DNA of 37,836 bases, from assembly GCA_016213725.1 (NCBI GenBank), contig JACQZS010000243.1, positions 1 to 37,836 on the forward strand. Reading direction: 5' to 3'. Shown piece by piece: positions 1,971 to 24,499 of the stretch. Positions within the stretch are counted from its first letter, which is position 1. Every line of letters starts with the position of its first letter. Position numbers and translations under genes: made by a program. The DNA is from Acidobacteriota bacterium (GTDB taxonomy: Bacteria; Acidobacteriota; Terriglobia; Bryobacterales; Bryobacteraceae). Under the pieces are notes generated by a model. That model saw nothing but the letters and a program-made list of their open reading frames with translations. It had not been told where the DNA came from and did no database searches.

Positions 1971-2084
1971 GAGCGGCTCCGCTCCGAACGGCCGGAGCCC
2001 GTAGTTGTGGGGCAGGACGACCGGCTCCACTCTTCACTCCATTGCGCCGGGGCCGCGATCTGCCAGTGCTGCATAGCCCGTAGT

Positions 2085-3326
2085 TCAACTCAGTCTATCA
2101 GGTGGGGCGATCGACTCGCCTACGATCGTGCGGAAGAGGTCCGCGACCTGGGCGGCCACCGCTTCCCAGCTCCTCCCTGCACCCCAGCGGGCGATAGCGG
2201 CGCGGTCCCAACCGCGCCGCAGCGCGGTGCACAAGGCCGCCGTCAGAGCCGCGTCGTTCGCGGGCGGAACCACGATGCCGTATTGATCTCCGGGCAGCAT
2301 CTGGGGCACGCCTCCGACATCGAAGGCGACGGCCGGCGTACCACACGCCAGGGCCTCGTTCACCACGTTCGGCCAGCCTTCCCGTTCGCTGGCGAGACAG
2401 AAGACATCGCTGGCCGCCATGTAACGAGCGAGTTCCGCCGGCCCCACGCTGCCGGTCAGGTGTACGAAAGGAGCCAGGCCGAGACGTTCCACGGCGTTGC
2501 GGATCTCCTCCTGGCAATCGCCTTCGCGGCCCGGCCCGCCGACAATCCACAGCTGTGCGGGCACGCCTTGCCGGCGCACTTCCGCCAGCGCATTCACCAC
2601 GCGATGGTGTCCCTTGCGGGCGATGAGATAGCCCGCCGAAAGCACATGGAGCGAATCGGGGTCCATCCTCAGTTGCTGCCGTGTCTCTTCCCGCGGGTGA
2701 GGGCGGAAGACCGCGGCGTCGATGCCATTGGGGACTACGTGCGCCCGCTCGGCATCCACCCCCAGTGAAAGGGCAAAATCGCGCAGCGGGCTGGAGACGC
2801 AGATCACGGCCGCGGCCCTCTGGAGCGATTCCGCCATCAGTAGCCGGATCTTCGGATGGGACGCGTGCATCGTTTCGTTGCCGCGCAACGTCACGGTGAA
2901 GGGAACGCGGAAATGGCGTGCCAAGCGGTCCGCCGCAATGCCCTCGGGATGGCCGAAGTGCGCGTCGATCAGTTGGAAGTCGAAACTGCGCCGGCAGCGC
3001 GCCAGGCGTCCTTGAAGCGCGCGAGCCATAAAGAGGCCATTCCAGGTGCCCCATCCGGGAGGGTAGAACCAGACCGGGTAGTCGACCTCCAGGCCGCTTT
3101 GATCGCCGGGGGACTTGGCGTCCAGCGCCGGCAGTTCGATGCGGCCGCGCGACAAGTCGATCCACGGCACAGGACAGACGACACGCACCGGCACTCTGCG
3201 GCTCAATGCAGCCAGGCGGCTCTTCACGAACAGCCCGAGCCGCTCGTCGCCGGCGCGCGGAAAGACCCCGGACAGACTGAGCACTCTCGGCTCGGCGCAA
3301 TCCGCGGGAGAACCGTCTCTTCGCAC
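2085..3326 (-). CDS. Glycosyltransferase family 4 (GT-B)
   Basis: A 413-residue GT4 enzyme beginning at a GTG 4 nt after the stop of the upstream ligase gene, so the two are probably co-translated. The N-terminal domain contains VLSLSGVFPRAGDERLGLFV and the LIDAHFGHPEGIAA segment. The C-terminal domain holds VVPNGIDAAVFRPHP, LHVLSAGYLIARKGHH, LWIVGGPGREG and the EGWPNVVNEALACGTP nucleotide-sugar binding motif with both conserved glutamates. These are hallmarks of retaining group 1 glycosyltransferases that add sugars to a lipid-linked repeat on the inner membrane face. The 114 bp to the next gene downstream holds no obvious gene. Substrate unknown. Confidence 0.92.
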   Translation of the reverse strand: MRRDGSPADCAEPRVLSLSGVFPRAGDERLGLFVKSRLAALSRRVPVRVVCPVPWIDLSRGRIELPALDAKSPGDQSGLEVDYPVWFYPPGWGTWNGLFMARALQGRLARCRRSFDFQLIDAHFGHPEGIAADRLARHFRVPFTVTLRGNETMHASHPKIRLLMAESLQRAAAVICVSSPLRDFALSLGVDAERAHVVPNGIDAAVFRPHPREETRQQLRMDPDSLHVLSAGYLIARKGHHRVVNALAEVRRQGVPAQLWIVGGPGREGDCQEEIRNAVERLGLAPFVHLTGSVGPAELARYMAASDVFCLASEREGWPNVVNEALACGTPAVAFDVGGVPQMLPGDQYGIVVPPANDAALTAALCTALRRGWDRAAIARWGAGRSWEAVAAQVADLFRTIVGESIAPPDRLS

Positions 3327-3330: not shown

Positions 3331-4737
3331 TTATCCTCTTGGGCGGAGTCTGGGCCGGGTCATTCTCATTCTTCCCGGCGAGACCAGCGGCCCTGCGCCC
3401 ACCGGTGCGGTGGGGCGCGCATCCATGGCAGGAATCGTTGTAAACCCCGAGGCTTCCGCCGGGGCGGGCGCGACAACAGGCGTGAAGAAGCCTTCTCTCT
3501 GCTCCAGAGTCAGGTAGGTGGCGGCGGTCATGACGAGCATGTAGAAGAAGTCGAACGTGGTGCGCGAGAGGAACGTGCTGCCCACCGCATAAGTGATCAG
3601 CGCCGTCAAGATGGCGTCGCAGATTCCCGCTGCGGCGTCGTCGCCGCGCTGTCTTGCCCGCCGCCCGGCCGCACGCATTTTCATGATTGTGCCGAAAAGG
3701 AGGTAGAGGTAGATTATCAGCGCGAAGATGCCGGTATCGGCGAGCAACTGCGTATACGTGTTGTGAATCACCTTGCCCGCGTGGGCTTTGTCCTCACCCT
3801 GCAAGTACTTCCCGATCAGCGCCTGCTCGTTCTTCTCGGTGAAACCCACCCCGAACAGCGGATAGTCCATCCACATTCGGATCGCCGCCGCCGACAGAAC
3901 CAAGCGCGATTGTGCCGAGGATTCGGCGTCACTCGACCCTACGGTGGCCACGGTCTCCATCCGCTTCAGCAGCGTGTCCTTCACCAGGTAAGTAATGCCG
4001 CCCGTGCACCCCAGCAGCACGAGGCCCATCATGACCCGCCGCTTCGATTTCAGCAGAATCAACAGCAGGCAAACCATAACCGAAACCACACCACCCCGGC
4101 TGTGCGTGAAGAAAACGCCGCCGATGCTGAGAAAACTGCAGGCCAAGAGTCCCATCTTCATCCACGGCTGCGATACCACGGGACGGATGAAATAGCAGAG
4201 CGGCAGCGCCAGGCAGAAGGCCAGCGCCATGGTATTGTTGTCGCTCAGCATGCCGCCGTAGCCGGCCATGAATCGGGCTCCGCCGGCAATCACTCCCGCC
4301 AGCCCGTACTTGGCGGCCAACAACCCGATGGAGGCGGAGATGACAACCATCATCAGCTCCAGGTGCCGCCGTGTCACAAGCACCAGCGGGAGGATCAAAG
4401 CCATAATGACAATCCGCAGGAACATGCCGTATTGCGGAAGGCAGATGTCCATCGATACGGCAAACACCACGGAAAGCGACACAGTCACCACAAACAGGAT
4501 GAGTGCGCGGCACAGCGAATTTGTAATCAGGACGGGAAGATTCTGCAGAATGCGTGGCAGCGCGAACAAGATGGTCACCGCCGCCATGTAGAAGGAGTAG
4601 TTGTTGGCCCCCGACCAAGCCAACACGTCGGGGCGCATGATGGCGAACCAATAGTAGCCAAACAGCCCCAATTGCGGACCGAAGGGCGCCATCAGGCACA
4701 CCAGCGCCACAATCACGACGACGATCATGTTTCTCAT
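3331..4737 (-). CDS. O-antigen ligase / Wzy-like polysaccharide polymerase
   Basis: A 468-residue polytopic membrane protein with about a dozen hydrophobic segments. Its N-terminus (MAPFGPQLGLFGYYWFAIMRP) and later FFTHSRGGVVS and GVGFTEKNEQALIGKYL segments match the exosortase-associated O-glycosylation ligase group with a Wzy_C domain. The periplasmic loop with VIHNTYTQLLADTGI is the signature of O-antigen ligases and polymerases, where the His is implicated in transfer of undecaprenyl-linked glycan. The cytoplasmic C-terminal tail is Pro/Ala-rich and low in complexity. It is followed after 4 nt by a glycosyltransferase. The likely role is polymerising or ligating the exopolysaccharide assembled by neighbouring enzymes. 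Polymerase and ligase cannot be told apart here. Confidence 0.9.
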   Translation of the reverse strand: MRNMIVVVIVALVCLMAPFGPQLGLFGYYWFAIMRPDVLAWSGANNYSFYMAAVTILFALPRILQNLPVLITNSLCRALILFVVTVSLSVVFAVSMDICLPQYGMFLRIVIMALILPLVLVTRRHLELMMVVISASIGLLAAKYGLAGVIAGGARFMAGYGGMLSDNNTMALAFCLALPLCYFIRPVVSQPWMKMGLLACSFLSIGGVFFTHSRGGVVSVMVCLLLILLKSKRRVMMGLVLLGCTGGITYLVKDTLLKRMETVATVGSSDAESSAQSRLVLSAAAIRMWMDYPLFGVGFTEKNEQALIGKYLQGEDKAHAGKVIHNTYTQLLADTGIFALIIYLYLLFGTIMKMRAAGRRARQRGDDAAAGICDAILTALITYAVGSTFLSRTTFDFFYMLVMTAATYLTLEQREGFFTPVVAPAPAEASGFTTIPAMDARPTAPVGAGPLVSPGRMRMTRPRLRPRG

Positions 4738-4948: not shown

Positions 4949-6058
4949 TCATGCGCCGACAGCGCTCCCGCCCCTGGCCTCTACACAGCGCCGGATCGAT
5001 TCCGCCACTTGCTTCGCATACACCGGCATGGCGCACTGCTCCTGGCAATATTGCCGGGCGTTGCGTCCCAACCGCTCTCGCAGTTCTCCGTCAGCCAGCA
5101 GGCGGTTTAACGCGGCATGCATCGCCCCGGGATCTCCCGGCTCGACGACCAGTGCCGTCTTGCCGTCTTCCACATAGTCGGTCACGCCCGGGCTGGCGCT
5201 GACCACCACCGCCTTGCCCATCGACATCGCCTCCAGCAGGGCATTGATTCCGCTCGGATGGATCGTCCTCTGCAAAGGCACCGCGACGATGGAAGCCGCC
5301 GCATACAGCTCCCGCAGTTGTTGCTCCGTCAGCCAACTTCTCTGCACATGCACGTTTTCCGGCAGTGGGCCCGCGATCGCCTTCCGGGTGTGCACCAGGA
5401 CCCGGGCGCCCAGTCCGTCCGATGCGCGCACCAGGCAGGCGTAGTCTCTGCCGATATCGCTGCCAACTGAAACAACCAGAGAGGCCGCAAGGCCGGGAGC
5501 GGGCGCCAAATCAGGATCGTAGAACTCCGTATCCATCCTGTGGCGGATCAGGCGCGCCTGGACCACGCTGCCGAAGCGTTCCCGCAGGAACCGCACCTGG
5601 ATTTCGCCGAAGACGATCACTTCCTGTACATGCGGCAGGACCAGGGAGTGCATCTTCATGCGCCACCGATAGTTGGGATCCAGCGCGGGGTCGATCACCA
5701 ATACCGGCTTCCTGAGCCGTAGGAGACGTTTGCACAGCACGAACAGGCAGGCCGAGGAAGAGTCGATTGAGAGGACCAGGTCGTACTTCCAATATGCCGC
5801 CATCAGCCGCAGGAACCGCACCGGATCGACTCCCGACCACAGGCTGCCACGCTTGGCCATCGGGTTCAGCCATGCAGGGGACGAGTCCACGACGACCGGC
5901 TCGATGCCCGACTCCTCCAGGTAGCTCAGGCCGTCCATCTCCTCGTGCTGTGCCGGGTCCTTGAAACGTCGCCTGATTCTCTCCCAGCGAGGGTGGGGCC
6001 ACAGAATGGCTACCCGCAATCGGCGAGCGGAGTAGCTGCTTTCTGTCGTCGGCATCAT
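4949..6058 (-). CDS. Glycosyltransferase family 4-like protein
   Basis: A 369-residue group 1 glycosyltransferase. The C-terminal half has the usual GT-B elements: LVVSVGSDIGRDYACLVRA, then IHPSGINALLEAMSMGKAVV (the Glu-containing nucleotide-sugar motif), then GVTDYVEDGKTALVVEPGDP. The N-terminal half (RVAILWPHPRWERIRRRF, DLVLSIDSSSACLFVL) is more divergent. No signal peptide is present, so it acts in the cytoplasm. It is the first minus-strand gene of the locus, and its start faces the divergent lipoprotein gene across 175 bp that must contain both promoters. Sugar specificity is unknown. Confidence 0.88.
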   Translation of the reverse strand: MMPTTESSYSARRLRVAILWPHPRWERIRRRFKDPAQHEEMDGLSYLEESGIEPVVVDSSPAWLNPMAKRGSLWSGVDPVRFLRLMAAYWKYDLVLSIDSSSACLFVLCKRLLRLRKPVLVIDPALDPNYRWRMKMHSLVLPHVQEVIVFGEIQVRFLRERFGSVVQARLIRHRMDTEFYDPDLAPAPGLAASLVVSVGSDIGRDYACLVRASDGLGARVLVHTRKAIAGPLPENVHVQRSWLTEQQLRELYAAASIVAVPLQRTIHPSGINALLEAMSMGKAVVVSASPGVTDYVEDGKTALVVEPGDPGAMHAALNRLLADGELRERLGRNARQYCQEQCAMPVYAKQVAESIRRCVEARGGSAVGA

Positions 6059-6233: not shown

Positions 6234-8597
6234 ATGCCATACAATCTGTCCCTTGGCGGTGTGGGCGTGAGATTCTGGTTGACGCGTCTGGGCGTCCTCT
6301 ATCTCGGCATCGTCTTACTCGGTTGCGCCACACCCGGCGCGGGCAAGGCACCGCCGGCGATTAAACGCCTCACGCCCGCCGGCCCTGCCCGCCGCGCCGC
6401 CGAAGGCGCTGTACAGAATGTGATGGTTGTCTATTCGAAGTCCGCGGTCCGGCGCCCGTACACCATCTCACGCATCTTCGCGCAGGGCGAGATTCTCAAA
6501 GAGGCTCAGGTCTCCTTCAATGGAACGCCTGCTCGCACTCAATGCGAGGTGAGAACACGCTGGCCGGACGGCAGCGTTCAACACGCGGTTCTTTCTTTCT
6601 GGGCGGAAACGAATGAAGGCCCCAACGAGCTGACATTCAGCCAGCAGGAGCCGGCCGAGCCCGGATCCGGTCTATCAGCCGAGGAGATGCTCTCCTCCGA
6701 ATACACTTTCGGCGCCACCATGGAGTTGAGCTCCGAGGGGCACACCGCTTTAGTGGATGCCCGGCAGATGATCTCCGCGGGCGCTTTCCGTTACTGGCTC
6801 CGGGGCCCCATCTGCACGCAGGTGGTCATTGAGGACCGCGGAGCGCAGCGCTCGTTCGATCAGGGGTGGACCGATCACAAGCCATTCCACCCGATGTTCG
6901 TCGCTACGTTCTATCCCGGCTGGCGGGGCGTCAAGGTGGAGTGGATTGGGGAGATTAGCTGGACGAACTCCCTGGAGGATATGGCCTATTCCCTCACGCT
7001 CAAGGCGGGCGCCCCGGACGCCCTTAGCGCGGTCTACTCTCTGCCCAATTTCAAGCACATTCTCGGTGCCCGCTGGCGCAAGAGCTTTTGGAGCGGTCCA
7101 GAACCGGCCCCTGTCGCGGTGAATCACAACCTGCCCTACCTCATTCACACCCGTGTATTGCCCAGCTACGACCAGAGCAAGTTCGTTTCCAACGCGGCCG
7201 TGGAAGCGATGTACGATCAATACTCCGCCAGCGGCCGCGGCGAGCCGGGCGACAATGCGCTCTGGCTGAAGTACTTCCCCACCACCGGGGGGCGGGCCGA
7301 TATCGGTCTGTTCCCGAGCTGGTACGTGAACTATCTCTATACCTTCGATCCTCGCCTGGAGGAGGTCTTCGCGGGTTGCGGCAATGCCAGCGGCAGCGCC
7401 CCCATCCACTTCCGGGAGGGCTCGTCGCGCCCTTATCTGCTCGACTCCGACGTGGAGGCCTTGGGGCGCCCTATCTCGGTGGAGGCACGCCCTTCGTTCT
7501 GGATCGGCAGATTCGACTATGCTGAATCCAACCCCAACGATCGCATTCAGTACTCGGGCCCACATGCCGATTCCGGCTGGACCGTCGATCTTTCGCATCA
7601 ACCCAGCATCTCTTTTCTTCCATACATCCTGACCGGAGATTATTACCACCTGGAAGAGCTGCAGTTCTGGGGCGCCCTCAATGCCGCCGCAGGCAACCCG
7701 GGCGATTGCTATTACTGCCGCCACAGCACCTGGGGCTTCATCAACGACCAGACGAGAGGCAATGCCTGGGGCTTGCGGACACTCGCCCATGCGGCATGGG
7801 CCACGCCCGATGGAACGCCGGAAAAGACCTACTTCACGGACAAGGTGTACCGGAACCTTGCCATCTTGGAGGGCGTCGCGGATGTGAACACCGGCAGCTT
7901 TTTCGACGAGTCCGTCGGCTCTCCGTGGTCTTTCGGTCGGCGCGATGTTCTGGCCGGGAAGAGCAATCCGTTGGGATTCATGGATCTGAACAATCCATAT
8001 GCCAGGTTCGACGGCCCGAAGTTCAACGCCGACCCGGCCTCCCCCGATCGCGTCACTCGAATCAACTCCCCGTGGCAATATAACTTCGTCCACCTGGTTC
8101 TGGGCCACATCGAGGAACTGGGTTTTCCCGCAGGCGCGGTGCGTAAGGCCTTCGCATTAAACCTGCTCCACCAACTCACGGATCCCGCATGCAACCACTA
8201 CCTGGTCGCCGACTACCAGAATCCGGTACTCAAGGCGGACGGCGGTCTCTATCAGTCCTGGGAATCCTATGCCCGGGCCTGGAGCCCGGATTACTTTGCC
8301 ATTCAGAAATGGCCTGAAAATGACGACAGGGATGTGCAGCACGGCTATCCGCACATCGCCCGGGCGGCGGCATCGTTTCTCCCCGGCATTTGCGATGGCG
8401 CCTTGTGCGGCGATCAGGCCTGGAACTGGATCAACCAGCACGTGGGCTATCAAGATCTGCTGAAAGACAATCCGAAGTGGGCGATCATCCCTCGCGGAGA
8501 GCAACCCGCCGAAGTTCTCGCCCAGAGGGCCGCTCAGAGACTCAAAGCCTACCGGCCGGCTCCCGCGAAAACCCGACCCAAAGGCCGCTCTAAGTGA
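6234..8597 (+). CDS. Large secreted lipoprotein of unknown function, paralogue of the 13189-16143 protein
   Basis: A 787-residue protein. Its N-terminus ends in a lipobox-like LLGC (Cys31), so it is probably a lipoprotein; an internal GTG at 6267 would give a more typical short signal. AGGTGG precedes the ATG. I recognise no named domain. An N-terminal beta-rich part contains RPYTISRIFAQGEI and RWPDGSVQHAVLSFW. A central part has NALWLKYFPTTGGRADIG and DLSHQPSISFLPYILTG, followed by a Trp-rich helical C-terminal half. All these blocks recur in order in the 984-residue protein at 13189-16143. The conserved Trp, His and Asp residues and the likely helical-toroid C-half suggest a carbohydrate-active enzyme; this is inference. 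It sits inside the polysaccharide locus, and its 3' end overlaps the convergent GT2 gene by 8 bp. Confidence 0.88.
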   Translation: MPYNLSLGGVGVRFWLTRLGVLYLGIVLLGCATPGAGKAPPAIKRLTPAGPARRAAEGAVQNVMVVYSKSAVRRPYTISRIFAQGEILKEAQVSFNGTPARTQCEVRTRWPDGSVQHAVLSFWAETNEGPNELTFSQQEPAEPGSGLSAEEMLSSEYTFGATMELSSEGHTALVDARQMISAGAFRYWLRGPICTQVVIEDRGAQRSFDQGWTDHKPFHPMFVATFYPGWRGVKVEWIGEISWTNSLEDMAYSLTLKAGAPDALSAVYSLPNFKHILGARWRKSFWSGPEPAPVAVNHNLPYLIHTRVLPSYDQSKFVSNAAVEAMYDQYSASGRGEPGDNALWLKYFPTTGGRADIGLFPSWYVNYLYTFDPRLEEVFAGCGNASGSAPIHFREGSSRPYLLDSDVEALGRPISVEARPSFWIGRFDYAESNPNDRIQYSGPHADSGWTVDLSHQPSISFLPYILTGDYYHLEELQFWGALNAAAGNPGDCYYCRHSTWGFINDQTRGNAWGLRTLAHAAWATPDGTPEKTYFTDKVYRNLAILEGVADVNTGSFFDESVGSPWSFGRRDVLAGKSNPLGFMDLNNPYARFDGPKFNADPASPDRVTRINSPWQYNFVHLVLGHIEELGFPAGAVRKAFALNLLHQLTDPACNHYLVADYQNPVLKADGGLYQSWESYARAWSPDYFAIQKWPENDDRDVQHGYPHIARAAASFLPGICDGALCGDQAWNWINQHVGYQDLLKDNPKWAIIPRGEQPAEVLAQRAAQRLKAYRPAPAKTRPKGRSK

Positions 8598-9507
8598 TGG
8601 AGTGGTCCCCGCCGGCCTTGCGGCCGCGGTCTGAGCCGAACTGACCAGCACGCTTCAAAGCCCGGTATGCGTTGAACACCCAGTCGGGTAGGTACGAGAG
8701 TGCGCGCAAGAGCCAGCATTGGAACGAATACCCCAAGCGGGTCGCCTCGGCCAGCCACATTTGCGCCGCCTTCCGCTGCCTGAGGTGGATCAATCCTCTG
8801 GCATGGCCTGCGTAGGTGTTCAGCTTCTGGACTTTAATCTGTTCTCGTGTCAACCCGGTCTCAGTTCCAACTCGTTCGAGACACTCGAGCAGACTTCTGA
8901 CGAATCGATCTGTGTTTCGCGTGACGCTCTGGTCCGTGGGACTATAGATGGTCAGAGGCTCAGAACAGGCCAGAATCCCGCCATAACGGAAGGCCAGCTT
9001 CAGCCAAACATAGTAGTCTTCCACGGGCGCAAGGTCGATTGGGAATCCCCCAACTGCGCAGAAGCGATCCTTTCGGACGGCAACAGAAGAAGTCGCTATC
9101 CAATTGCGCCGCCAGAGCTCCTGGAAATCCAGTTCGGTGGGAGGGACCGGTCGTCCGGCCACCGCCGTGTGCACCAGGGTGGCGTCCCTGTCCGTGATCG
9201 CGAGCAGTTGGCGCTCCAGTTTCCCAGGGAGCCATTCATCATCCGCATCCAAGAAGGCGATCCAATCGCCCAGAGCTGCCTCCACCCCGTGATTCCGGGC
9301 AGCGCCAGCTCCCTGGTTGGCCTGCCGCAGCAACTTGACTCCACTCCCATACTTCTGAACCGCCAACACCGTACCGTCCGCCGACCCGTCGTCCACCACC
9401 ACGATTTCCAGCGGTTTGATAGTCTGTCGCAGCACGCTGTCGAGCGCTTTTCTGATCGTCATCTCGGCGTTATACGCGGGAATGACCACGCTAATCTTCG
9501 GCGGCAT
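8590..9507 (-). CDS. Glycosyltransferase family 2 (GT-A)
   Basis: A 305-residue GT2 enzyme. It has the GT-A start ISVVIPAYNAEMTIRKALDS (residues 5-24), the VVVDDGSADGT nucleotide motif, and the metal-binding DADD motif in WIAFLDADDEWLP. A downstream DLAPVEDYYVWLKLA segment supplies the ED acceptor-site acidic residues. GGGAG lies about 10 nt upstream of the ATG. The C-terminal 90 residues are helical with several Trp and Arg and may associate with the membrane. It probably adds one sugar to the lipid-linked repeat unit. It is a lone minus-strand gene between two plus-strand genes, and its last 8 bp overlap the convergent lipoprotein gene. Confidence 0.92.
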   Translation of the reverse strand: MPPKISVVIPAYNAEMTIRKALDSVLRQTIKPLEIVVVDDGSADGTVLAVQKYGSGVKLLRQANQGAGAARNHGVEAALGDWIAFLDADDEWLPGKLERQLLAITDRDATLVHTAVAGRPVPPTELDFQELWRRNWIATSSVAVRKDRFCAVGGFPIDLAPVEDYYVWLKLAFRYGGILACSEPLTIYSPTDQSVTRNTDRFVRSLLECLERVGTETGLTREQIKVQKLNTYAGHARGLIHLRQRKAAQMWLAEATRLGYSFQCWLLRALSYLPDWVFNAYRALKRAGQFGSDRGRKAGGDHSIT

Positions 9508-10248
9508 ATTTCGTGTTCTCCCTGCGGGCCGGCTCTGCCGTGCCGTTGCTGCATCGGTCCAGCCCTACCGCTACCAGACCTGCGGCCGCACTATGCGGCA
9601 TCGGCCGGGCCCATCTCCGCACAACGCGTGAAGACGCGATCCCGAAAGCGAATCTCATGGACAACGGAAATGCATGTGAATGGCGGCATTGTGCTACCGG
9701 CCCAAGGCGCTGCGGAGGTGCGGCCCGAGCATGGGCGGCGCGCCGGAAACCTCGAAACTCCCGCACTCCCTCTTCACCTGATGCGCATCCCCAGCCTCAC
9801 CCACCGCCGACCATTCGCTCGCCAGCCCGCGATGAGCGTGCGCGAGCCCGTGATCCGGTAGTGCTGCGGCCACGGGCAACATATGTTTCTTATAACACAG
9901 GGATCTTCGACCCCTCAAAGCCGGCAGTGACAGCGGTTTTGCTGAGACATTTAAACTCTCAACACGGCGGTGCGCCGGAGGGGCTGCGCTTCCCCCTGCG
10001 AAGGCATTCCGGCGTGCCGCGAGCAAGTAGGGGGCGGGTGCGGTAATGGTATTCTGTGCAGATATGACGTTGGAGTAGATGTATTTGTTGCTGCCCGTCC
10101 CTGACCTGGTTCGCCCACTCTGTCGGCTGGCTCAGTCGCGGCACGGACCAGGAGGCGGACAAAGCCCCAGGGCAGCCCGGTTGCCGCGGCGATCAGGTTT
10201 CATTAGCGGCAACTGGCGGGCTTCCTGCCGCGGCGTGGAGAGTCGACA
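9508..10248. other. 741-bp intergenic region without recognised gene
   Basis: Neither strand gives an ORF with protein-like composition; short Arg/Pro/Ala-rich ORFs are GC-driven. It separates the divergent GT2 and flippase genes and so must contain two promoters. An AT-richer patch lies around 9880-9960. I found no confident RNA structure, repeat or transposase remnant. Confidence 0.4.
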
Positions 10249-11706
10249 TTGCATTCCCTAAACAGGATTCTTAGTAAGAGCGCGTCCCTTTCAGTGCCCA
10301 TGCTGGCATCGAGAGTTCTTTCGATCCTGGTGGTTCCGATCTATGCCCGCTATCTGTCCACGGCCGAATTCGGAGTCTTGGAGCTGCTCGACCTCACTCT
10401 GTACTTCTTCACCGCGCTTTGCGCCCTGCAACTCAGCAATGCCGTGGTCTATTGCGTGGGAGACCGGCCGCCGGAATCACACAATCGGATTTACAGCACG
10501 GTCTTGATCGCCGGGTTGTCGTTCGGCATGGGGGTCTTCCTGATGGGGAGTCTGTCCAGTCCGGTTCTCAGCCGCCTGGTATTCAACTCCACTGCCTACA
10601 CGGCTGCCTTGATTTGGTACTTCGCCGCGTTCGCCCTCAATCCGGTGATCGAAGTTGGCATGATCATCCTCCGGCTGAAGGACCGCATCGGCGTCATGAA
10701 CACCGTCGCCATTGCGCGTAGCGTGCTGCAGGCCGTGCTGAGTATCATCTTCCTCAGCGCGTTTCGCCTGGGCTACATGAGTTTTGCCTGGTCCTCGCTA
10801 GCCGTATCGGTCCTGTTCGGCTTGGGTGTCCTGGCGGTTGCCTATTCCCAGATGCCGATTGTGCTCGACCGGGCGATCATGAAGACCGTGGTGAAATATG
10901 CCGCACCCCTCGGACTCGGTTCGTTTGCCATGCTGATCGTCCACTACGGCGACCGATTCTTCCTGCAGCGCTACGCGTCTCTCTCCGACGTGGGCATCTA
11001 TGCGCTGGCCAACAAGATCGGTATGCTGGTTTACTTCTTCCAGGGACCCTTCAGCGCCTATTGGGCCGTGGAGCGTTTCCGCGTGATGAACGATCCCGCG
11101 GGAGCGGCCCACTACGTCCGGATTTTCACCTACCTGACTCTGGCGCAAGGCGCCGCGCTGCTCGCCCTGGCCGTGGCTGCCCGGCCGGTAGTGGCCCTCT
11201 TCCTGCCCCCGGCTTACGCTGACGTGGCGACCTACGTGCCCTGGATCGCCTTGGCGTTCGTCCTGCGCTCCCTGGGAGAGCACCTCAGGGGTGTGCTGCT
11301 GGTGCGCGCCCGCACTACTTACGATACGGCCATCTGCGTGGCCGGCTCCGTGCTTTGCCTGCTGCTTTATCTCGGTCTCATTCCGTCTTTCCACGTCGCA
11401 GGCGCCACGGCCGCCACGGTTATCGCATTCGCCGCGCTTGTCGTCATCAGTTTTGTCGCCGCTCAGCGGGCGCACCACTTCGACTATGAATATGGCCGCC
11501 TCGCGCGTATTGCCGTCGCCGTCTGCGTTCCCGTCTGCGCGCTGTTCGCCGTGCTGCCCGTGCCGCTCTGGCTGCAGACGCTTCTCGGGTTGGCGTGCCT
11601 TTTGTTCTATGCGGTGATCCTTAGGTTCTCCGGCTTCTTCCAGCCCGACGAGTTGGACGCCTTGCGGCGCAACCTGTCGAAGGCAAAGAGCTTGATCTCG
11701 GCATGA
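10249..11706 (+). CDS. Wzx-type oligosaccharide flippase
   Basis: A 485-residue polytopic protein with about 12-14 hydrophobic helices, of the MOP/polysaccharide biosynthesis superfamily. The N-terminus (SASLSVPMLASRVLSILVVPIYARYLSTAEFG) is the classic amphipathic first helix and loop of Wzx flippases. YAAPLGLGSFAMLIVHYGDRFFLQRYAS is the equivalent start of the second half. It would move undecaprenyl-linked repeat units across the inner membrane to the ligase/polymerase. The likely start is TTG at 10249, because GGAG lies 8 nt upstream; no better ATG is present. The next glycosyltransferase follows 85 nt later on the same strand. Confidence 0.92.
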   Translation: MHSLNRILSKSASLSVPMLASRVLSILVVPIYARYLSTAEFGVLELLDLTLYFFTALCALQLSNAVVYCVGDRPPESHNRIYSTVLIAGLSFGMGVFLMGSLSSPVLSRLVFNSTAYTAALIWYFAAFALNPVIEVGMIILRLKDRIGVMNTVAIARSVLQAVLSIIFLSAFRLGYMSFAWSSLAVSVLFGLGVLAVAYSQMPIVLDRAIMKTVVKYAAPLGLGSFAMLIVHYGDRFFLQRYASLSDVGIYALANKIGMLVYFFQGPFSAYWAVERFRVMNDPAGAAHYVRIFTYLTLAQGAALLALAVAARPVVALFLPPAYADVATYVPWIALAFVLRSLGEHLRGVLLVRARTTYDTAICVAGSVLCLLLYLGLIPSFHVAGATAATVIAFAALVVISFVAAQRAHHFDYEYGRLARIAVAVCVPVCALFAVLPVPLWLQTLLGLACLLFYAVILRFSGFFQPDELDALRRNLSKAKSLISA

Positions 11707-11791
11707 TTCCGGGTTCCTTGATCGGTGTCGCCTGGCGAGGAGTATCACGCATGCCGCTGGCCGGTCTTACGGTTCGCGGCTGGGAGGACTC

Positions 11792-13105
11792 ATGTTGAAA
11801 CGGATCCAGGGGCTGGCAAACAAGGCCTTCACTCATCTGCGGTTGCTGCGTGACGATCCGGAGACGTTTGGCCGGAATGTCCTGCAGTACACCCAGCCGC
11901 AGCTCTTCGAATCAAGGCTTGTCGATGTCCTTTCCTGTCCCCAGCATCATCTGCACGTAGATCCCGATCGGCCTCCCGCCCTCAACGTGATGCAGGCCGG
12001 GCTCGGTTCGGCCGGCATGACAGGCGGCCCGAACACCATCGTCCTCCTCGCCGCCTTGGCCGCGGAAACCGGGTTAACCGTGCGCATTGTCACCCATTCT
12101 CCCGGCGCTACCACCGACTTCAGTTGGTTCGCGAGTCACGTCAGCAGCCTGCTGGGGCGGCCCATGCCTCCTACCCTGGAGGTTGTTTCTGCCGCTGACT
12201 CGGATCATCCCGCAACCGTCGGCAAGCGCGACCTCTGGCTGGCCACGCATTGGACTACCGCTCAGGCCGTCAAGCCCATTCTCGACCTGATGCATCGCCG
12301 TTGGTTCCTTTACCTGATCCAGGATTTCGAGCCCGGCTTCTATCCCTGGTCCAGTAACTACGCCCTCTCGCTGGAGACCTACCAGATGCCGCACCGGGCG
12401 ATCGTCAATGAACGGTTCCTGGCGGACTATCTGGTGGAACGCCGCGCCGGGCTCTATGCCGAGGCAGGCTTTGGCGCTCAACACGCCATCGCTTTTGATC
12501 CCGCCGTCGATCGGCGTGTCTTCTATCCCCCCACCCAATCCTCTCCCGGTTCCAAGCGCAGGCTGCTGTTCTATGCGCGCCCCACCAACCCCAGAAACCT
12601 CTTCGGCCTCGGACTACAAGCCTTGCGGGCTGCCGTTCGCAACGGCGTGTTCTCCGGCGATTGGGAGTTCCTGAGCATCGGCAGCCGCGGCAGCCTGCCT
12701 GTTCTTGACTTGGGTTCCGGCCTTCAGCTCAGACCCGAGCCCTGGGCCGGGTATTCCGCCTATGCCGATCTGCTGCGGACCGCCGACCTGCTGCTGTGCC
12801 CCATGCTGTCGCCGCATACCAGCTATCCCGTCCTCGAGATGGCCGCCTGCGGCGGTACTGTGGTGACCTGCAGCTATGGCCCGAAGAGTGCCGCGGCTCT
12901 GGCCGCTCTCTCGCCGGATATCCTCGGCGTCCCGCCCACTTCGCAAGGCCTCCTCGATGGCCTCGCCGCCGCTGCTCAACTCGCCGGCAAGCCGAAACAA
13001 GACCGCCTCCAATTGCCGGCTTCCTGGGACGACGTGCTTCCGCCCATCGTCGACTGGGTTGTCCACAATGTGAACGGCGTCGATTGGCCGTTTGGCGGCG
13101 GCTGA
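11792..13105 (+). CDS. WsaF-like GT4 glycosyltransferase (rhamnosyltransferase-like)
   Basis: A 437-residue protein resembling the GT4 rhamnosyltransferase WsaF and related rhamnan-synthesis proteins. It has a glycine loop (GLGSAGMTGGPNTIVLLA), a WLATHWTTAQ segment, and the diagnostic YLIQDFEPGFYPWSSNYALS block. LLFYARPTNPRNLFGLGLQAL and HTSYPVLEMAACGGTVVT complete the C-terminal nucleotide-sugar site. No signal peptide; probably cytosolic. A rhamnose donor is suggested by family resemblance only. It follows the flippase and is likely co-transcribed. A strong hairpin lies 46 bp after its stop. Confidence 0.85.
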   Translation: MLKRIQGLANKAFTHLRLLRDDPETFGRNVLQYTQPQLFESRLVDVLSCPQHHLHVDPDRPPALNVMQAGLGSAGMTGGPNTIVLLAALAAETGLTVRIVTHSPGATTDFSWFASHVSSLLGRPMPPTLEVVSAADSDHPATVGKRDLWLATHWTTAQAVKPILDLMHRRWFLYLIQDFEPGFYPWSSNYALSLETYQMPHRAIVNERFLADYLVERRAGLYAEAGFGAQHAIAFDPAVDRRVFYPPTQSSPGSKRRLLFYARPTNPRNLFGLGLQALRAAVRNGVFSGDWEFLSIGSRGSLPVLDLGSGLQLRPEPWAGYSAYADLLRTADLLLCPMLSPHTSYPVLEMAACGGTVVTCSYGPKSAAALAALSPDILGVPPTSQGLLDGLAAAAQLAGKPKQDRLQLPASWDDVLPPIVDWVVHNVNGVDWPFGGG

Positions 13106-13151
13106 TCTTCCTTGCGCTCGCCAAGCCCTCCCCGCGGTTCGCTTCGGGGAA

Positions 13152-13177
13152 GCGTGCGCCGGCGGAGCGGCGCACGC
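13152..13177. terminator. Hairpin between convergent genes
   Basis: A perfect 9-bp inverted repeat (GCGTGCGCC / GGCGCACGC) with an 8-nt loop lies in the 83-bp gap between the converging genes ending at 13105 and 13189. Position and stability suit a bidirectional terminator, although no T-run follows on either strand. Confidence 0.5.
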
Positions 13178-13188
13178 CTCACCATTCG

Positions 13189-16143
13189 TCACTGAACCGT
13201 TCCGATGACCCTGCCTGTCCCGCAGGTGATTCGAAAACGGTAGGGACCCGCGCCCAATCCGGATACCGACACCGTCCGCGCCACAGCCCCGCCTCCATCG
13301 CTGGTGTCGCCGCCGTCTGAGGAATCCGCTAATGCTCCCGCCACCGTGTACTTGCACGCGCCAAGGTCCGGAGCACTGTAGCGCAGCGTGACTGTGCCGC
13401 TGGCCGCGGAGGCGCGGACATCTGCCGGATCGGGCCTGCGCTGAAAGGTCCACATCGGACTGCCGTGCGATGGATCGGTGTTCGAGTTGATGATCTCGTG
13501 CGCGGCGATGATCCTCTCTAATGCCGCTCGCGTCGAGGCGTAACCCGGCGTCGACGCATCAGCGGAGACCGCGAGTCCTGCCCTGGCGAGAGTCGTGTAG
13601 CCCCCCGACCAATCGTTGCCAAAGAAGAGATGCTGGAATCTGACGCCCGCACCGCTGGCGTGAGTGGTGGCCGTCGTGCCGAGCGCCCCCCGGCCAGACG
13701 GGCAAACTGTAGCGGTGACCACTCCATTCCGAGGGCTGCCGGTGAGCTTGCAGATCACGATGGCTTCGCTTTCCACCCAAACCACACCGATCGGCTGCGA
13801 GTACAACCACCCATATGATGTGTTCGCCTCGCCCGCCATGGCCCCGGAGAATTGAAACGTGGTGTCAGCAAGCCCCATGCTGGCCGCAGTTGTGCCAGTC
13901 AGATCCAGCAGCGTATTCATCTCGGTTCGATTGGCCGGAGCCTTCCCTACGCCTGCTTTGAGCATGGTGGTCGGATGGACGTAGAATGCAATCGCCGGAG
14001 GATAAGCCGCCTCATCCATCATCGTCCGTGAGCTGAACAATGAGGCCTCGGCCAGGGTGCGCTTGAAAACGGGGCTTCCGCCGGTTGTCAACACGCCGCT
14101 TTGGTTGGCCCACGCGAATGTGGTGAGTAGGAAGTTGTGCTGCCAGACCGACATACCGCCGCAGGCCAATGAGGAGTGGTTCCCGTTGGGGTTGCCCACT
14201 TGCGTGCTCCCGAAGTGGGTGATCCTCAAGTCGCTGGCGCCGGCCGCCTCGCCAAACGCTTTCCGTCCGATGCACCATGGACGAGTCTCTGTGTCCCATG
14301 CATAACCGGCACAGGTTGTGTCCGCCGGCGCGTACAATCCGTCGGTCACGTTGAAGTACCCCTCCCAGGCCGCGTCGATGTTCCGTAGTTTCGAGGCGAA
14401 GTACGCTGCTTCCGCGTCTGTCTCATTGGCAATCGCCGCACCCAGCCAGATGTCTCTGGTGGTCCAGGACGCACCCCGGAGCTGCTCGTTATTGATAGAC
14501 CTCATCCCCATCGGACTCCCTGATCCGTACCAGGGCGAAGCGCACGCGCCCCCCATGCTCGTCGCGTTCCAGTTCCCGCGCCACGGATTGCCGCCCTGCA
14601 CGCTCAGCTGCGCCAGAAAATACTGCTCCCAGATGTAGAAAGGCCTTCCGGTCAGCAGCGCAGGGAGAAAGAAGAAAGAGGGCTGGTGGGCCAGGTCCCT
14701 TGTCCAGTTCTGAGTGTAGGCCACGTCCCCGTTGTACAGTGACCCGTCGCACGGCGCCGTGGAGCAGACCGGATCGAACGCGTCTGCCGCCGCGACGTAA
14801 CTGTCCGTGGTCTTCTCGCGGTCGCACAGCCCCACAGTCGGCCGGCTGTCGGCGTTGACTGTCTTGCCGAAATAGGACGTACGGGAAGCGTCCGACTCCC
14901 AATAGTGGATCGGGTATGACGTAGCGGCGTCCGCGTTCCCGACGAGCAGCTTGTTCCACACGTCCAACTTCCGTGTGGCCGTCCAGCCGGCGTTTCCCAT
15001 TCCGTAGAGATAGTAGGCGTACCACTGGGGAATCGGGGCGATGTCCCCGCGGCCGCCCGTGTTTGGGATGTACTTCAACCACAGCGCGCAGTTGCCGGAC
15101 GCCGGCGTACACCACTCGGGCTTTTCGGTGACCGTTCTGGAATCGTAGGTCGAGAGAAGCCCATCGACTTTGCTTTGTGCGAAGTTCAATGAGGTGTCGT
15201 AAGGCAGCAAGGCCCGCGAGTACACCATATAGGCGAAATTGAAGTCCACCACTGCCGCCGATGGAGCCGTGCCGCTCCATTGGACGGTATGCCAGGTTCG
15301 CCGCGTGATCATGTTCGGAGTCCCGGCACTCGTGATCGTGCAGCCCGTTCCGGCGCAGTAACTCTCCGTCGTGCCGGCAGCCCCGGTCAGCACCCTGAGC
15401 CTGTCCAGCGGGATGCGCTGGAGGCGAGTAGTCGAGGCGTTCCATAGAATCGCTTCGACCTCCACCCCCGGCCATGCGGAGGCTGTGCCAGAGGCGGGCC
15501 AGAACTGCACCATGATGATCGGGTGCAGGCTCTTGTACTGGGAGGCCGATGGCGCCTGCCACGAGCCTCCGCTGTACTGCCAGCCGAAATCATACGAAAG
15601 GGCCGCGGTGCGATCTTCTGCGATGGCCCATGTCACCACGGGCCCGCGCAAGTAGTAGCGCCACGTGCCGGCAGCGAGCATCGTCTTCGCGTTCGCCGTG
15701 TAGCTGATCGAGTTCAGCGTCCCTTCGACAATCCCGTTCCACGATCCGCTGCCGCCGCCTGTGTCGAACGCCAGCATCCCGGCCTGGTCCAGCGCCGCCG
15801 CGTCGGTGGCGGTGTCGTCGCCGGCCGAGGAACGGTTGGTGTCGTTCACGAAATCCGCCGTCACGCTGCCGCTGCCGGCGATGTCCTGCCGCCATGAGAC
15901 GTAGGCCAATCTCACGCTGCCGTCGTCCCATCTCGCCTTCACGTCGCACTGCCACGCTCCCGGCGCGGCCCCCGCCACTCTCGGCTTGGCGTAGCTGGCA
16001 ATCTCGCCTCGCGCGAACCAGCGATGGATCAGTACCGGGCGCGCCGTTTGCGCCGCCGCCGCCGCGTCATGGATCGTCACGCTGTTGTCCAGCGCCGGCA
16101 GCGGAAGGCACAGAAGTATTCCCATCAACGCTCGCTTCATCAT
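13189..16143 (-). CDS. Large secreted protein of unknown function, paralogue of the 6234-8597 lipoprotein
   Basis: A 984-residue exported protein with a Sec signal peptide (MMKRALMGILLCLPLPALDN). Blocks shared in order with the 787-residue lipoprotein include RPVLIHRWFARGEI, RWDDGSVRLAYVSW, YYLRGPVVTWAIAEDR, CALWLKYIPNTGGRGDI, DLAHQPSFFFLPALLTG, INNEQLRGASW and WQHNF. It is about 200 residues longer. Extra parts include a segment near residues 805-835 with RGALGTTATTHASGAG, a motif style seen in phage tail proteins, and a C-terminal Fn3-like beta domain (about 905-984). Many Cys and Trp residues fit an extracellular protein. It is the third gene of a compact operon and overlaps the preceding gene by 4 bp (ATGA). 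Polysaccharide hydrolysis or lysis is my guess. Confidence 0.88.
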   Translation of the reverse strand: MMKRALMGILLCLPLPALDNSVTIHDAAAAAQTARPVLIHRWFARGEIASYAKPRVAGAAPGAWQCDVKARWDDGSVRLAYVSWRQDIAGSGSVTADFVNDTNRSSAGDDTATDAAALDQAGMLAFDTGGGSGSWNGIVEGTLNSISYTANAKTMLAAGTWRYYLRGPVVTWAIAEDRTAALSYDFGWQYSGGSWQAPSASQYKSLHPIIMVQFWPASGTASAWPGVEVEAILWNASTTRLQRIPLDRLRVLTGAAGTTESYCAGTGCTITSAGTPNMITRRTWHTVQWSGTAPSAAVVDFNFAYMVYSRALLPYDTSLNFAQSKVDGLLSTYDSRTVTEKPEWCTPASGNCALWLKYIPNTGGRGDIAPIPQWYAYYLYGMGNAGWTATRKLDVWNKLLVGNADAATSYPIHYWESDASRTSYFGKTVNADSRPTVGLCDREKTTDSYVAAADAFDPVCSTAPCDGSLYNGDVAYTQNWTRDLAHQPSFFFLPALLTGRPFYIWEQYFLAQLSVQGGNPWRGNWNATSMGGACASPWYGSGSPMGMRSINNEQLRGASWTTRDIWLGAAIANETDAEAAYFASKLRNIDAAWEGYFNVTDGLYAPADTTCAGYAWDTETRPWCIGRKAFGEAAGASDLRITHFGSTQVGNPNGNHSSLACGGMSVWQHNFLLTTFAWANQSGVLTTGGSPVFKRTLAEASLFSSRTMMDEAAYPPAIAFYVHPTTMLKAGVGKAPANRTEMNTLLDLTGTTAASMGLADTTFQFSGAMAGEANTSYGWLYSQPIGVVWVESEAIVICKLTGSPRNGVVTATVCPSGRGALGTTATTHASGAGVRFQHLFFGNDWSGGYTTLARAGLAVSADASTPGYASTRAALERIIAAHEIINSNTDPSHGSPMWTFQRRPDPADVRASAASGTVTLRYSAPDLGACKYTVAGALADSSDGGDTSDGGGAVARTVSVSGLGAGPYRFRITCGTGRVIGTVQ

Positions 16144-17171
16144 CGAACCCCCTGCGTGGAAATGCGCGCCTTCGCCCCGTAGTAGTCCAGGTACAGCGAC
16201 TTCGACGCCGCCTCGTTGGTCTTCAGCCGCACCTCCGTCTGCAGCGCTTTATCGTTCACGATGGTCGCCGTCACATCGCAGCCCGCTCCGCAGAGTGTTT
16301 TCTCAACGCCGTCCAGCTTCATGCGCACCTTGCCTTGTTCCACGTCGTCGCCTTGGATGCAGAAGGTGTGCCATGCCGTGTCTCCCGCGATTCCGGTGTC
16401 AAAGTCGGCGTTGGTGCCCGCGGTGTACTTCCCGGTGCGGAACCGGAAGTTCTGCGCCGTTGTGGTCGCGTCGTAGTAAAGCGCCACGTAGTTGTACCAG
16501 GCGAACAAGCTCGTATCGTTGCCTAAACCGATCCAGGCCGACATCTGCGTCGTCGTCCCGAGCTTGAAAACCCAGCACGCCTTCCAACCTGTCCTCGAGG
16601 CGTCCAGCCACGCCGACGTCTTGGCGTAGGGCGCCAGGGTCAGTGCAAACGCCGTGCCTGACGTGGCGCCGGTCTGCAGCAGCCACTGTCCGGGGTGATT
16701 CGGCCCATCGGTCATGTCGGTGTTCCCCGGCTGCACGCCGCTGAGGGAGTACCCCGATCCGCCCAACCCCGCCAGAAACCAGAGGTTTTCACCCATAATC
16801 CATCCGGCATTGCTGGCGTTCTGTTGCGCCACCGCCATACATTCCTCCCGATGCACCATCCATCCCACGTCCGTGGGGTCAGGCTCGGCAGCACTTGCAG
16901 CCGCGCCGGCTGCGACTGTCCACGTGTTGGCGGCCGTACACAGGTACAGGTTGCGGCCCGCCGCCGCGTCGGTTTTGAAATAGGTCTGTCCCACTGAGCA
17001 GGTAGCCGGCAGCGCTATACCGCTCTTGTTCGGAGCCGTCGACGACGACGCCCCAAAATCCACCACGTTCGCCGTCAACGTGCCCAGCACCGCCAGCGAA
17101 CCGTTCACCGTCATACCCCACAACAGAGCCGCGCTCAACAAAGCGAGCAACAGAACCAGTATTCTTCTCAT
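16140..17171 (-). CDS. Secreted LamG-like protein with phage-tail-like N-terminus
   Basis: A 343-residue protein with an N-terminal signal peptide (MRRILVLLLALLSAALLWG). Residues about 50-95 contain LPATCSVGQTYFKTDAAAG followed by NLYLCTAANTW, a short beta motif common in tail-fibre-like and surface proteins. The rest reads as a concanavalin/LamG-like jelly roll: FALTLAPYAKTSAWLD, WHTFCIQGDDVEQGKVRM, LDGVEKTLCGAG, and a final LDYYGAKARI strand. Such folds bind glycans or build surface appendages. It starts 1 nt after the stop of the repeat protein and its stop overlaps the start of the 984-residue protein, so the three are almost certainly co-expressed. Function not known. Confidence 0.82.
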   Translation of the reverse strand: MRRILVLLLALLSAALLWGMTVNGSLAVLGTLTANVVDFGASSSTAPNKSGIALPATCSVGQTYFKTDAAAGRNLYLCTAANTWTVAAGAAASAAEPDPTDVGWMVHREECMAVAQQNASNAGWIMGENLWFLAGLGGSGYSLSGVQPGNTDMTDGPNHPGQWLLQTGATSGTAFALTLAPYAKTSAWLDASRTGWKACWVFKLGTTTQMSAWIGLGNDTSLFAWYNYVALYYDATTTAQNFRFRTGKYTAGTNADFDTGIAGDTAWHTFCIQGDDVEQGKVRMKLDGVEKTLCGAGCDVTATIVNDKALQTEVRLKTNEAASKSLYLDYYGAKARISTQGVR

Positions 17172-17172: not shown

Positions 17173-18603
17173 TCAGAACCCCCGAATCACCCGGCCGCCG
17201 AAGGCCAGTCCGTCTCCCACCGAAATCCCCACAGCTGTCGCATTGCACAGCCGCACCACAATCAGATTGTTGGCCGCATACATCATGCCGAGCAGACCGT
17301 TCGCCAGGTATGGAAACACCGGCGCGATCGCGTCGCCCGGTTGGACCCCCGCCGCCGTGATGTTCTTCTCCAGGCAGCTGGCCGCCGCCAGCGTGCCCCA
17401 GCCCGTGGGGTTTCCCACGTAGAACGCCTGCGACGCCGCGCCTCCATTCGGATCCACACGCACCGGATCCTGCGACGTTCCCGTGCCTGTAACGCCCCCG
17501 CTCGTGACCACTGATCCGCCGCCGCCGCCGCCCGAAGCCGTCGCCCACGTCCCGTCTCCTCGCAGGAACACGGTCGAGTTCGCCGTCCCGCTTCCTAGGC
17601 GCGCCGCCGGCAGGATGCCCGATGTGATCTTCGACGCATCCAGCGATGGGATTTGCACCGCCGCCAGCGTGCCCGTGGTGATCTTCGACGCATCCAGCGA
17701 TGGGATCTGCACCGCCGCCAGCGTGCCCGTCGTGATCTTTGAGGCGTCCAATGCCGGCACCTGCGCCGCAGTCACCGCTCCCCCCAGATGGGAGAGCTGC
17801 AGGCTCGCCTCAACGATATCGATCGTCGGCGCTCCGGCCACGCCATCGCCATTCGCCACGCTCACTTTGGTGCTGCCGCCCGTCAGGCTTCGCGCCTGCC
17901 AGGCCACTCCCGTCCAACTCTGCAGCCCCGCCGCCGACGGGTTCGTTCCTCCGCCTCCGCCGGCGCCGCCTGACGCCCAACCCCCGTTCACCGTGTTCAC
18001 CACGCAGCTCCCACTTTGCGGTTGGCCGAATGTCACTTGCACCGTGCTTGCATCGACCACCCGGATCTCATCCGGCTGCACCACCGCGCCGTTAGTGTCA
18101 TAACAACTCACCAGCACGTTGGCCGTGCCCTGGTTGTGCGCCACGGTGACCGCCGTCTGCGAAGTGAAGCTCTGCCCGGCGTTCGGCACCATCGCCGCGC
18201 ACGGTTTGCCGCTGCTGGTCAGGCTGCCGCTGGCGTCAAACTGCGCGCACTCTCCGCTGTTCACCGTGCCGCCGCCATAGGTCTGCAGCACTCCGCTGGC
18301 GCCCTGCTTTCCGCTGATGCCCGACAGGTCAGCCAATCCATGGCTGTGCGCCGCCACGGCGCTCCAGACCCCGGCGGGCGTACAGTAATAAAGCCCCGTC
18401 GCCCCGGTTGTCAGCGCAACAACCTCGCCACTGGCGCAACCGGCCGGCAGCGATGCCACCGTTCGCGCCGGCCGCGTGAAACTCTGCCCTCCGAAATCGC
18501 CGCCTCTGGTCTGATTCGGAATTGGGACGCTGGTCTGTCCCACCGCCAGCACCGAGGCGGCCGCCAGCACCGGCAGCCAGCCGATGCACCTCTTCTCGTT
18601 CAT
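17173..18603 (-). CDS. Secreted tail-fibre-like repeat protein
   Basis: A 476-residue exported protein. I start it at the ATG at 18603 because AGGAG lies 6 nt upstream and the signal peptide (MNEKRCIGWLPVLAAASVLA) begins there. Tail-fibre features follow: GLYYCTPAGVWS, a Gly-rich linker, then three tandem 18-residue units around LDASKITTGTLAAVQIPS (about residues 273-326), and STVFLRGDGTWA. Repeats of this type form beta-helical or trimeric shafts in phage tail fibres. A second Gly-rich linker leads to a C-terminal domain ending VGDGLAFGGRVIRGF. There are no capsid, portal or lysis genes nearby, so this is a host surface protein rather than a prophage. It heads the operon with 17171 and 16143. 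Confidence 0.82.
   Translation of the reverse strand: MNEKRCIGWLPVLAAASVLAVGQTSVPIPNQTRGGDFGGQSFTRPARTVASLPAGCASGEVVALTTGATGLYYCTPAGVWSAVAAHSHGLADLSGISGKQGASGVLQTYGGGTVNSGECAQFDASGSLTSSGKPCAAMVPNAGQSFTSQTAVTVAHNQGTANVLVSCYDTNGAVVQPDEIRVVDASTVQVTFGQPQSGSCVVNTVNGGWASGGAGGGGGTNPSAAGLQSWTGVAWQARSLTGGSTKVSVANGDGVAGAPTIDIVEASLQLSHLGGAVTAAQVPALDASKITTGTLAAVQIPSLDASKITTGTLAAVQIPSLDASKITSGILPAARLGSGTANSTVFLRGDGTWATASGGGGGGSVVTSGGVTGTGTSQDPVRVDPNGGAASQAFYVGNPTGWGTLAAASCLEKNITAAGVQPGDAIAPVFPYLANGLLGMMYAANNLIVVRLCNATAVGISVGDGLAFGGRVIRGF
17624..17785 (-). repeat. Tandem 54-bp coding repeats
   Basis: Three consecutive 54-bp units begin at 17624, 17678 and 17732, marked by GTGATCTT(C/T) on the plus strand. 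The first two are almost identical; the third has diverged. They encode the 18-residue tail-fibre-like repeat of the surrounding gene. Near identity of two copies suggests recent duplication or slippage. Confidence 0.85.
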
Positions 18604-18679
18604 CTCTCGCTCCTTTCGAGCGCGGCAGCTTGCGTCCGGGCGCAATGCCGCGTCCCGCCAAGAAGAGAAAACGGGTCAA

Positions 18680-21639: not shown

Positions 21640-21708
21640 TGTGCGTCGTGATGGGTGCGAGTCCCTGTTTATCAAACGCCGCCCTGCGGCGCAAGTTGAA
21701 GCCGGCTC

Positions 21709-22203
21709 TCAGGCGGAGGCTTTGCTGGCCTTATAGGCGTCGCGCGCGGCACGAATCTGCCGGGCGTGGCCTTCGGCGTGGTCGGCGTAGATGCGCAGCA
21801 GGTCTTTGAGTGTCAGCGGCCCGCGCTCATTGTGCGTGCCGATCCGCGGCCAGGCGGTTTCGGGCTGGTCTTTGAGCAGCTCGAAGTTCTCCCCGCGGAT
21901 GCGCCGGAATGTCTCCAGCGCCTGCGAAAATTTGCGTTTGCGGTAGTCCAGCTTTTCGGCCCAGGCGTCCTGGTCGTAGCCGATAATGGTCGGGTTCTCC
22001 TCGGCGATCACGCGCGACAGCCGGTCCCGCCCGACAATCTCGGAATCGGCCAGGTGGCAGACGATCTGCCGGACGCTCCACTTGCCCGGGGCGGGGCAGT
22101 AGTCCAGCTCGGCGCCGGCCGCCCCCGTTGTGACGACGGCGATCAGCTCCGCGCCGCGGCGGAAGCGTTCCAGCAAATCTTGAATCTCGTTCTGATCAGG
22201 CAT
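21709..22203 (-). CDS. DinB-fold protein
   Basis: A 164-residue four-helix DinB_2/YfiT-like protein. The metal-binding histidines appear in GKWSVRQIVCHLADSE and in YADHAEGHARQIRA near the C-terminus. The family includes damage-inducible DinB proteins and thiol S-transferases; the exact reaction cannot be assigned. It starts 20 nt after the stop of lexA, so lexA and this gene are probably one transcript, which would place it under SOS control if the operator at 22840 works. Confidence 0.88.
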   Translation of the reverse strand: MPDQNEIQDLLERFRRGAELIAVVTTGAAGAELDYCPAPGKWSVRQIVCHLADSEIVGRDRLSRVIAEENPTIIGYDQDAWAEKLDYRKRKFSQALETFRRIRGENFELLKDQPETAWPRIGTHNERGPLTLKDLLRIYADHAEGHARQIRAARDAYKASKASA

Positions 22204-22223
22204 GGGCGAGCTTTCAGTTTAGC

Positions 22224-22838: not shown

Positions 22839-22839
22839 A

Positions 22840-22855: not shown

Positions 22856-22940
22856 TTTCCCTCGCCGTGTCAAGGGGACAGCTTGTCTTAGCCGTCTTGC
22901 CGCTAGTATGATGCCAACGGGTGGGAGAGAGAGGTTCACC

Positions 22941-24479: not shown

Positions 24480-24499
24480 CTCCAAGTCCTTCCGAAACC

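Follow-up and report, generated by a model that had tools for sequence, protein, structure and literature searches.

Two exported paralogues with a predicted PL26-like fold at a Bryobacteraceae polysaccharide locus

The paralogue pair and its predicted fold

A stretch of 37,836 nucleotides from a Bryobacteraceae member of the Acidobacteriota (assembly GCA_016213725.1, contig JACQZS010000243.1; hereafter the window) encodes two large exported proteins, P1 and P2, on opposite strands of a polysaccharide locus. Both reading frames were found where a preliminary description of the sequence had placed them, with the lengths of 787 and 984 residues given there.

6234..8597, + strand: P1, 787-residue lipoprotein
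13189..16143, − strand: P2, 984-residue secreted paralogue of P1

P1 and P2 are divergent paralogues of common ancestry. BLASTP aligned them over 597 columns at 30% identity (193 bits, 3e-55), and the raw local alignment score of 537 compares with a mean of 47 and a maximum of 69 in 100 shuffles. When P1-side and P2-side profiles were aligned with hhalign, the match extended over 702 columns (1.6e-136). The two proteins had been paired earlier on shared blocks in the same order; both blocks that were named are present in the alignment (ALWLKYFPTTGGRADI / ALWLKYIPNTGGRGDI and DLSHQPSISFLPYILTG / DLAHQPSFFFLPALLTG), but the likeness spans most of the length and not the blocks alone. No third copy of the family was found in the source genome (6.05 Mb in 341 contigs, 88.8% complete), which was placed within one genus together with genome G008 and is Bryobacteraceae-like.

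The N-terminus of P1 carries a lipobox-like motif, LLG-C31, ending at Cys31. A loose lipobox pattern was also found in the six closest relatives of P1 (P0003-P0008), and in 21 of 63 P1-side rows versus 1 of 41 P2-side rows. The N-terminus of P2 is plain signal-peptide-like by eye. At the level of such motifs, this agrees with the earlier view that one protein is lipid-anchored and the other free.

Pfam and NCBIfam scans of P1 and P2 returned no family for either. Confident AlphaFold2 models of the two proteins were compared with the PDB. A single full-length match was obtained for both models, the polysaccharide lyase family 26 (PL26) exo-rhamnogalacturonan lyase, and it covers all three domains. 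The domain limits in the predicted models are as follows.

P1, about 61-140: RIFT barrel
P1, about 160-300: β sandwich
P1, about 312-760: α/α toroid
P2: domain plan as in P1, plus a β insert in the C-half at about 760-840
P2, about 900-984: C-terminal Fn3-like domain, extra relative to P1

The RIFT barrel, central β sandwich and α/α toroid that mark PL26 are thus all present in the predicted models, and the plan is shared with PL26 (PcRGLX, PDB 5xq3, 5xqg, 5xqj and 5xqo; YetA-like proteins) across most of the length, although identity in the structural alignment is only about 9%. Sequence profiles gave a narrower link. They were run on A1 (47 of 63 P1-side proteins) and A2 (34 rows, mostly from 42 P2-side proteins), sets that leave out fragments, over-long and fused rows. 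The PL26 sandwich and toroid models PF21345 and PF21346 matched 0 of 47 P1-side and 0 of 34 P2-side members at E values up to 1, so that no profile link to PL26 was seen in these two domains, and PF21346 was not found in the source genome. The RIFT-barrel model PF19501 matched 18 of the 47 P1-side members at E < 1 (best 1.5e-6) and 0 of the 34 P2-side members, and P1 and P2 themselves gave no match. Membership in PL26 proper was rejected on this basis: because sequence kinship, itself weak, is detectable in the first domain only, we describe the family as PL26-like. The preliminary description had recognised no named domain, which holds for Pfam and NCBIfam; the fold is nevertheless not unheard of, since CAZy already lists a fold relative, PL26. 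Large proteins of a further group (L065 and L067), from other families of the phylum, have a partial match to the PL26 toroid (E about 1e-13).

The helical C-half noted earlier, and read there as a sign of a hydrolase or lyase, appears as an α/α domain in the predicted models, with PL26 the sole long match to both; as far as prediction goes, this favours an enzyme of the hydrolase or lyase type. P1 and P2 could instead be glycoside hydrolases acting on the same locus polymer, with a toroid bearing a hydrolytic site as in GH88/GH105 or other α/α families. The GH88/GH105 unsaturated uronyl hydrolases are (α/α)6 barrels with a catalytic Asp. Structural matches to hydrolase families were confined to the C-half and lay near the background of the tool, whereas PL26 covers three domains of both models, and we regard the hydrolase alternative as rather unlikely.

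Across 82 aligned homologues, His455 and Arg508 (P1 numbering) are invariant, Tyr705 is present in 80 and Arg354 in 77. In the RIFT barrel, Gln103 and Asp112 are kept in every row having a letter there (79 and 80, respectively). Conservation makes these residues candidates for catalytic roles. Comparison by eye of printed alignments showed a Tyr-to-Phe change in the PL26 substrate complex 5xqo relative to the wild type. The altered residue is probably a catalytic Tyr, and it lies where the PL26 profile does not align with P1. Alternatively, P1 and P2 might have an enzyme fold but no catalytic activity, and serve to bind glycans or to organise a matrix. The Fn3-like domain of P2 and the LamG-like and tail-fibre-like partners described below are of kinds typically seen in adhesins and matrix proteins, and we know of no family member with known activity. 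The polar residues His455, Arg508, Tyr705 and Arg354, however, are invariant or nearly so in these divergent members, which makes a non-catalytic role improbable.

P1-type genes and polysaccharide loci

P1 lies among genes for sugar modification, glycosyl transfer and polysaccharide export.

1..843, − strand: GalE-like NAD-dependent sugar epimerase/dehydratase, below the equivalog cut-off; continues beyond the window
840..2030, − strand: GT4 glycosyltransferase
2085..3326, − strand: GT4 glycosyltransferase
3331..4737, − strand: O-antigen-ligase family protein (Wzy_C; TIGR03097 above cut-off)
4949..6058, − strand: GT4 glycosyltransferase
8590..9507, − strand: GT2 glycosyltransferase, convergent with P1 (8-nucleotide overlap)
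10249..11706, + strand: Wzx-type flippase (Polysacc_synt)
11792..13105, + strand: WsaF-like glycosyltransferase (from the Pfam/NCBIfam scan), presumably a rhamnosyltransferase

The flippase and glycosyltransferase genes said earlier to lie between P1 and P2 are all there, namely those for GT2, the flippase and the WsaF-like protein.

A family match was found in 35 of 200 Bryobacteraceae genomes. The locus survey covers the 26 of these genomes whose matches are strong; the other nine, G027 and G034 among them, had weak N-terminal hits and were set aside. In G010 two fragments, probably of a single gene, count as separate loci. These 26 genomes hold 134 Wzy_C genes over cut-off. A Wzy_C gene is found no more than 5 kb away from 16 of the 41 family loci, where gene number and genome size predict 0.52; the carrier genomes are related, so the nominal P of 2e-20 exaggerates the association. 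Among strict P1-type loci, defined by an A5 score over 500 (a threshold chosen after the scores had been seen), 15 of 19 have a flippase or ligase homologue, 14 by hidden Markov model (HMM) and L098, on the same contig as L045, by Pfam. The four exceptions are L025, L030, L097 and L113; two of these sit on contigs shorter than 8 kb. The strict class excludes seven loci also classed as P1 (L035, L104-L106 and L114-L116), and two of these lower-scoring loci (L105 and L106) have a ligase or flippase gene. No flippase or ligase homologue was found in 24 control stretches (325 kb), a comparison in which the marker HMMs favour the test loci because they were built from hits inside them. The epimerase model matched in two controls (L061 and L129). 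L120, fetched as a control, was dropped because its contig carries a ligase-family gene.

The evidence for linkage of P1-type genes to flippase/ligase loci is strong. The preliminary description had tied the whole family to polysaccharide loci; this stands for the P1 type, but the P2 type is tied more to the tail-fibre/LamG cassette described below. P1- and P2-like frames share a contig, 4.1-5.5 kb apart, in five genomes: G000, G008, G010 (a P2 piece), G414 and G442, the P2 class being marginal in the last two. In two genomes an asparagine-synthase-type amidotransferase gene adjoins a P1-type gene (L030:3217-5229 and L033:2001-3953).

The linkage also bears on whether the proteins degrade a foreign plant or microbial polysaccharide and have biosynthetic neighbours by accident. 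PL26 is named for its activity on pectin, as the titles of its PDB entries state, whereas the P1/P2 family is often found in polysaccharide biosynthesis loci and in phages. The window further contains a sugar-acid catabolism set at 18816-27436 and 37335-37835, with an SDR, an L-rhamnonate/galactonate-dehydratase-like MR_MLE protein, an aconitase X (AcnX) and an RraA-like aldolase. It also encodes, at 22974-25781, a DUF2961 protein; DUF2961 is related to GH172. These catabolic and DUF2961 genes would fit degradation of a foreign polymer, but their homologues turned up at 2 of the 26 loci that were checked (DinB/MR_MLE/SDR in L024 and DUF2961 in L045), whereas the P1 type is repeatedly linked to flippase/ligase genes. 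We consider a foreign substrate distinctly improbable.

Elsewhere in the window, an OmcA/MtrC-like multihaem cytochrome, an NrfD-like membrane protein and a 4Fe-4S protein are encoded at 29745-34996, possibly an outer-membrane electron-transfer module.

The P2 cassette and relatives in tailed phages

Two genes precede P2 on the same strand and form with it a cassette in the order h490-h343-P2.

16140..17171, − strand: h343, exported, LamG/concanavalin-like by eye, no Pfam match; overlaps the P2 start by 4 nucleotides
17173..18645, − strand: h490, exported, phage-tail-fibre-like, with 18-residue (54-nucleotide) repeats; first gene of the cassette

Homologues of h343 and/or h490, counted together because a short common motif makes their HMMs cross-match, were found on the same strand within 1.6 kb at 16 of 19 P2-type loci. 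Two of the remaining loci, L030 and L117, have lost the upstream side at a contig end, and the third, L031, has 1.9 kb upstream without a match. None of the 24 control stretches contained a homologue of either gene. Matches of h490 to PHROGs were weak (2.6e-10 to a family of unknown function, 1.7e-6 to a virion structural family and 1.2e-5 to a tail family). The same-strand cassette is also found at L024, L026, L032 (with a different gene order), L034, L100-L103, L107-L109, L139, L144, L150-L155 and L157, in bacterial genomes and viral contigs. At L100-L103, from four genomes of one genus, no ligase-family gene lies within 20 kb of the cassette; L102 has an adjoining GT4 gene. The P2 cassette has the look of a phage module that hosts have taken into use.

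Among viral proteins, a structure search matched one from an uncultured Caudovirales phage (E 2.3e-13, TM 0.71 by target, 19% identity). A tblastn search of phage records gave one match, gp39 of EBPR siphovirus 1 (2e-43 with a distant homologue as query, 5e-26 with P1). The gp39 gene (JF412302) lies between terminase and head-protein genes and adjoins a gene annotated as glycosyl hydrolase. Scans of IMG/VR recovered 18 loci from each side of the family, some of them repeats of one virus. Neighbours were checked at seven of these 36 loci, and five have hallmark phage genes; for the other 29, viral status is IMG/VR's own call. At L139 the h490-h343-P2 order occurs near a portal/adaptor gene (1.1e-25) and a major head protein gene (1.8e-48), and a virion structural protein gene (3.7e-80) adjoins the cassette. 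Neighbours include an endolysin and a tail fibre protein at L149, a terminase at L147, a portal at L136 and, at L133, a portal with up to 49% identity to Synechococcus phages. Those at L150 matched phage families without an assigned function and, weakly, a virion-structural one. The family gene at L144 is 75% identical to that at L139, and its cassette proteins alone were compared with phage families.

Phage virion depolymerases are encoded among the virion-structure genes of tailed phages. Phage relatives of P1 and P2, several in number, occupy this position; the window genes do not. Known phage depolymerases are virion tailspikes (PMC6966330), whereas many of the phage members found here have signal-peptide- or lipobox-like N-termini, which would be odd for a virion part. 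By eye, such N-termini are present at viral loci L131, L133, L135-L137, L139, L142, L144, L149-L151, L153, L155 and L159 and absent from EBPR gp39, L147, L134, L140, L141 and L146. Given how many retain them, some viral members may be secreted from the infected cell and form no part of the virion.

A tree of 102 rows included 22 viral open frames and gp39; P0074, P0091 and P0093 were dropped as identical or nearly identical to viral loci. Placing the 23 viral tips takes a minimum of 14 changes, against a mean of 20.9 and a minimum of 16 after shuffling; viral members are thus mixed with the others, but to a lesser degree than chance would give. Tips from outside the viral scans may include viral contigs. 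L133 and L139 branch off basally on the P2 side (support 0.83-0.85). P1 falls in a clade of 29 rows that is free of viral tips but weakly supported (0.53). The tree does not settle the direction of transfer between phage and host.

A further member, annotated as a calcium-binding protein, is encoded on the Skermanella rosea plasmid pSR-1 (L168:7797-10403), with 27% identity over 60% of P1. The plasmid is typed as mobilizable.

Proposed function

We favour, with moderate confidence, the reading that P1 and P2 are exported paralogues with a predicted PL26-like three-domain fold that would likely cut an acidic bacterial surface polysaccharide, P1 acting on the polymer of its own locus and P2 being of phage type. 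The hydrolase, foreign-polymer and non-catalytic alternatives have lower odds. P1, lipid-anchored and predicted to reside in the outer membrane (Ala at +2), would trim or clear the polymer made by its locus. Secreted together with its LamG-like and tail-fibre-like partners, P2 may belong to a depolymerase cassette of phage type that became fixed in host chromosomes, and would act on polymer outside the cell. Catalysis would be by β-elimination in the toroid cleft through the invariant His455 and Arg508, with Arg354 and Tyr705. Two observations weigh against a lyase: no uronate-forming gene was recognised in the window, and in eight of nine genomes UDP-glucose dehydrogenase genes are on other contigs.

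Two known lyases bear comparison with P1 and P2. One of them, RbmB, is a different protein with a different fold. It is a secreted lyase of Vibrio cholerae that cuts the producer's own biofilm polysaccharide, VPS (PMC11637428); its activity is experimentally established, whereas that of P1 and P2 is predicted. AlgL of the Pseudomonas alginate system is likewise a lyase within the machinery that makes its own substrate (PMC4432689). It belongs to another family, and alginate production is synthase-dependent (PMC9734138), whereas the P1 locus encodes a flippase and a protein of the ligase family.

A broader scenario is possible but doubtful. One PL26-like family would serve on both the phage and the host side, carried by phages among virion genes or as exported enzymes; Bryobacteraceae would have fixed two copies round one locus, with P1 processing the cell's own coat and the captured h490-h343-P2 cassette cutting the same coat from outside. 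If so, P1 and P2 would recognise one polymer, and each host locus would name the receptor digested by its phages.

The P1/P2 family is likely an uncatalogued enzyme family; the literature was compared by keyword, and the family may already have been described. It would add an uncatalogued polysaccharide-cleaving family to Acidobacteriota polysaccharide loci, for which PL26, as structural parent, suggests the chemistry and the residues to test. If phage and host members share a polymer, a bacterial locus and a phage gene would form a matched pair for coat-receptor prediction.
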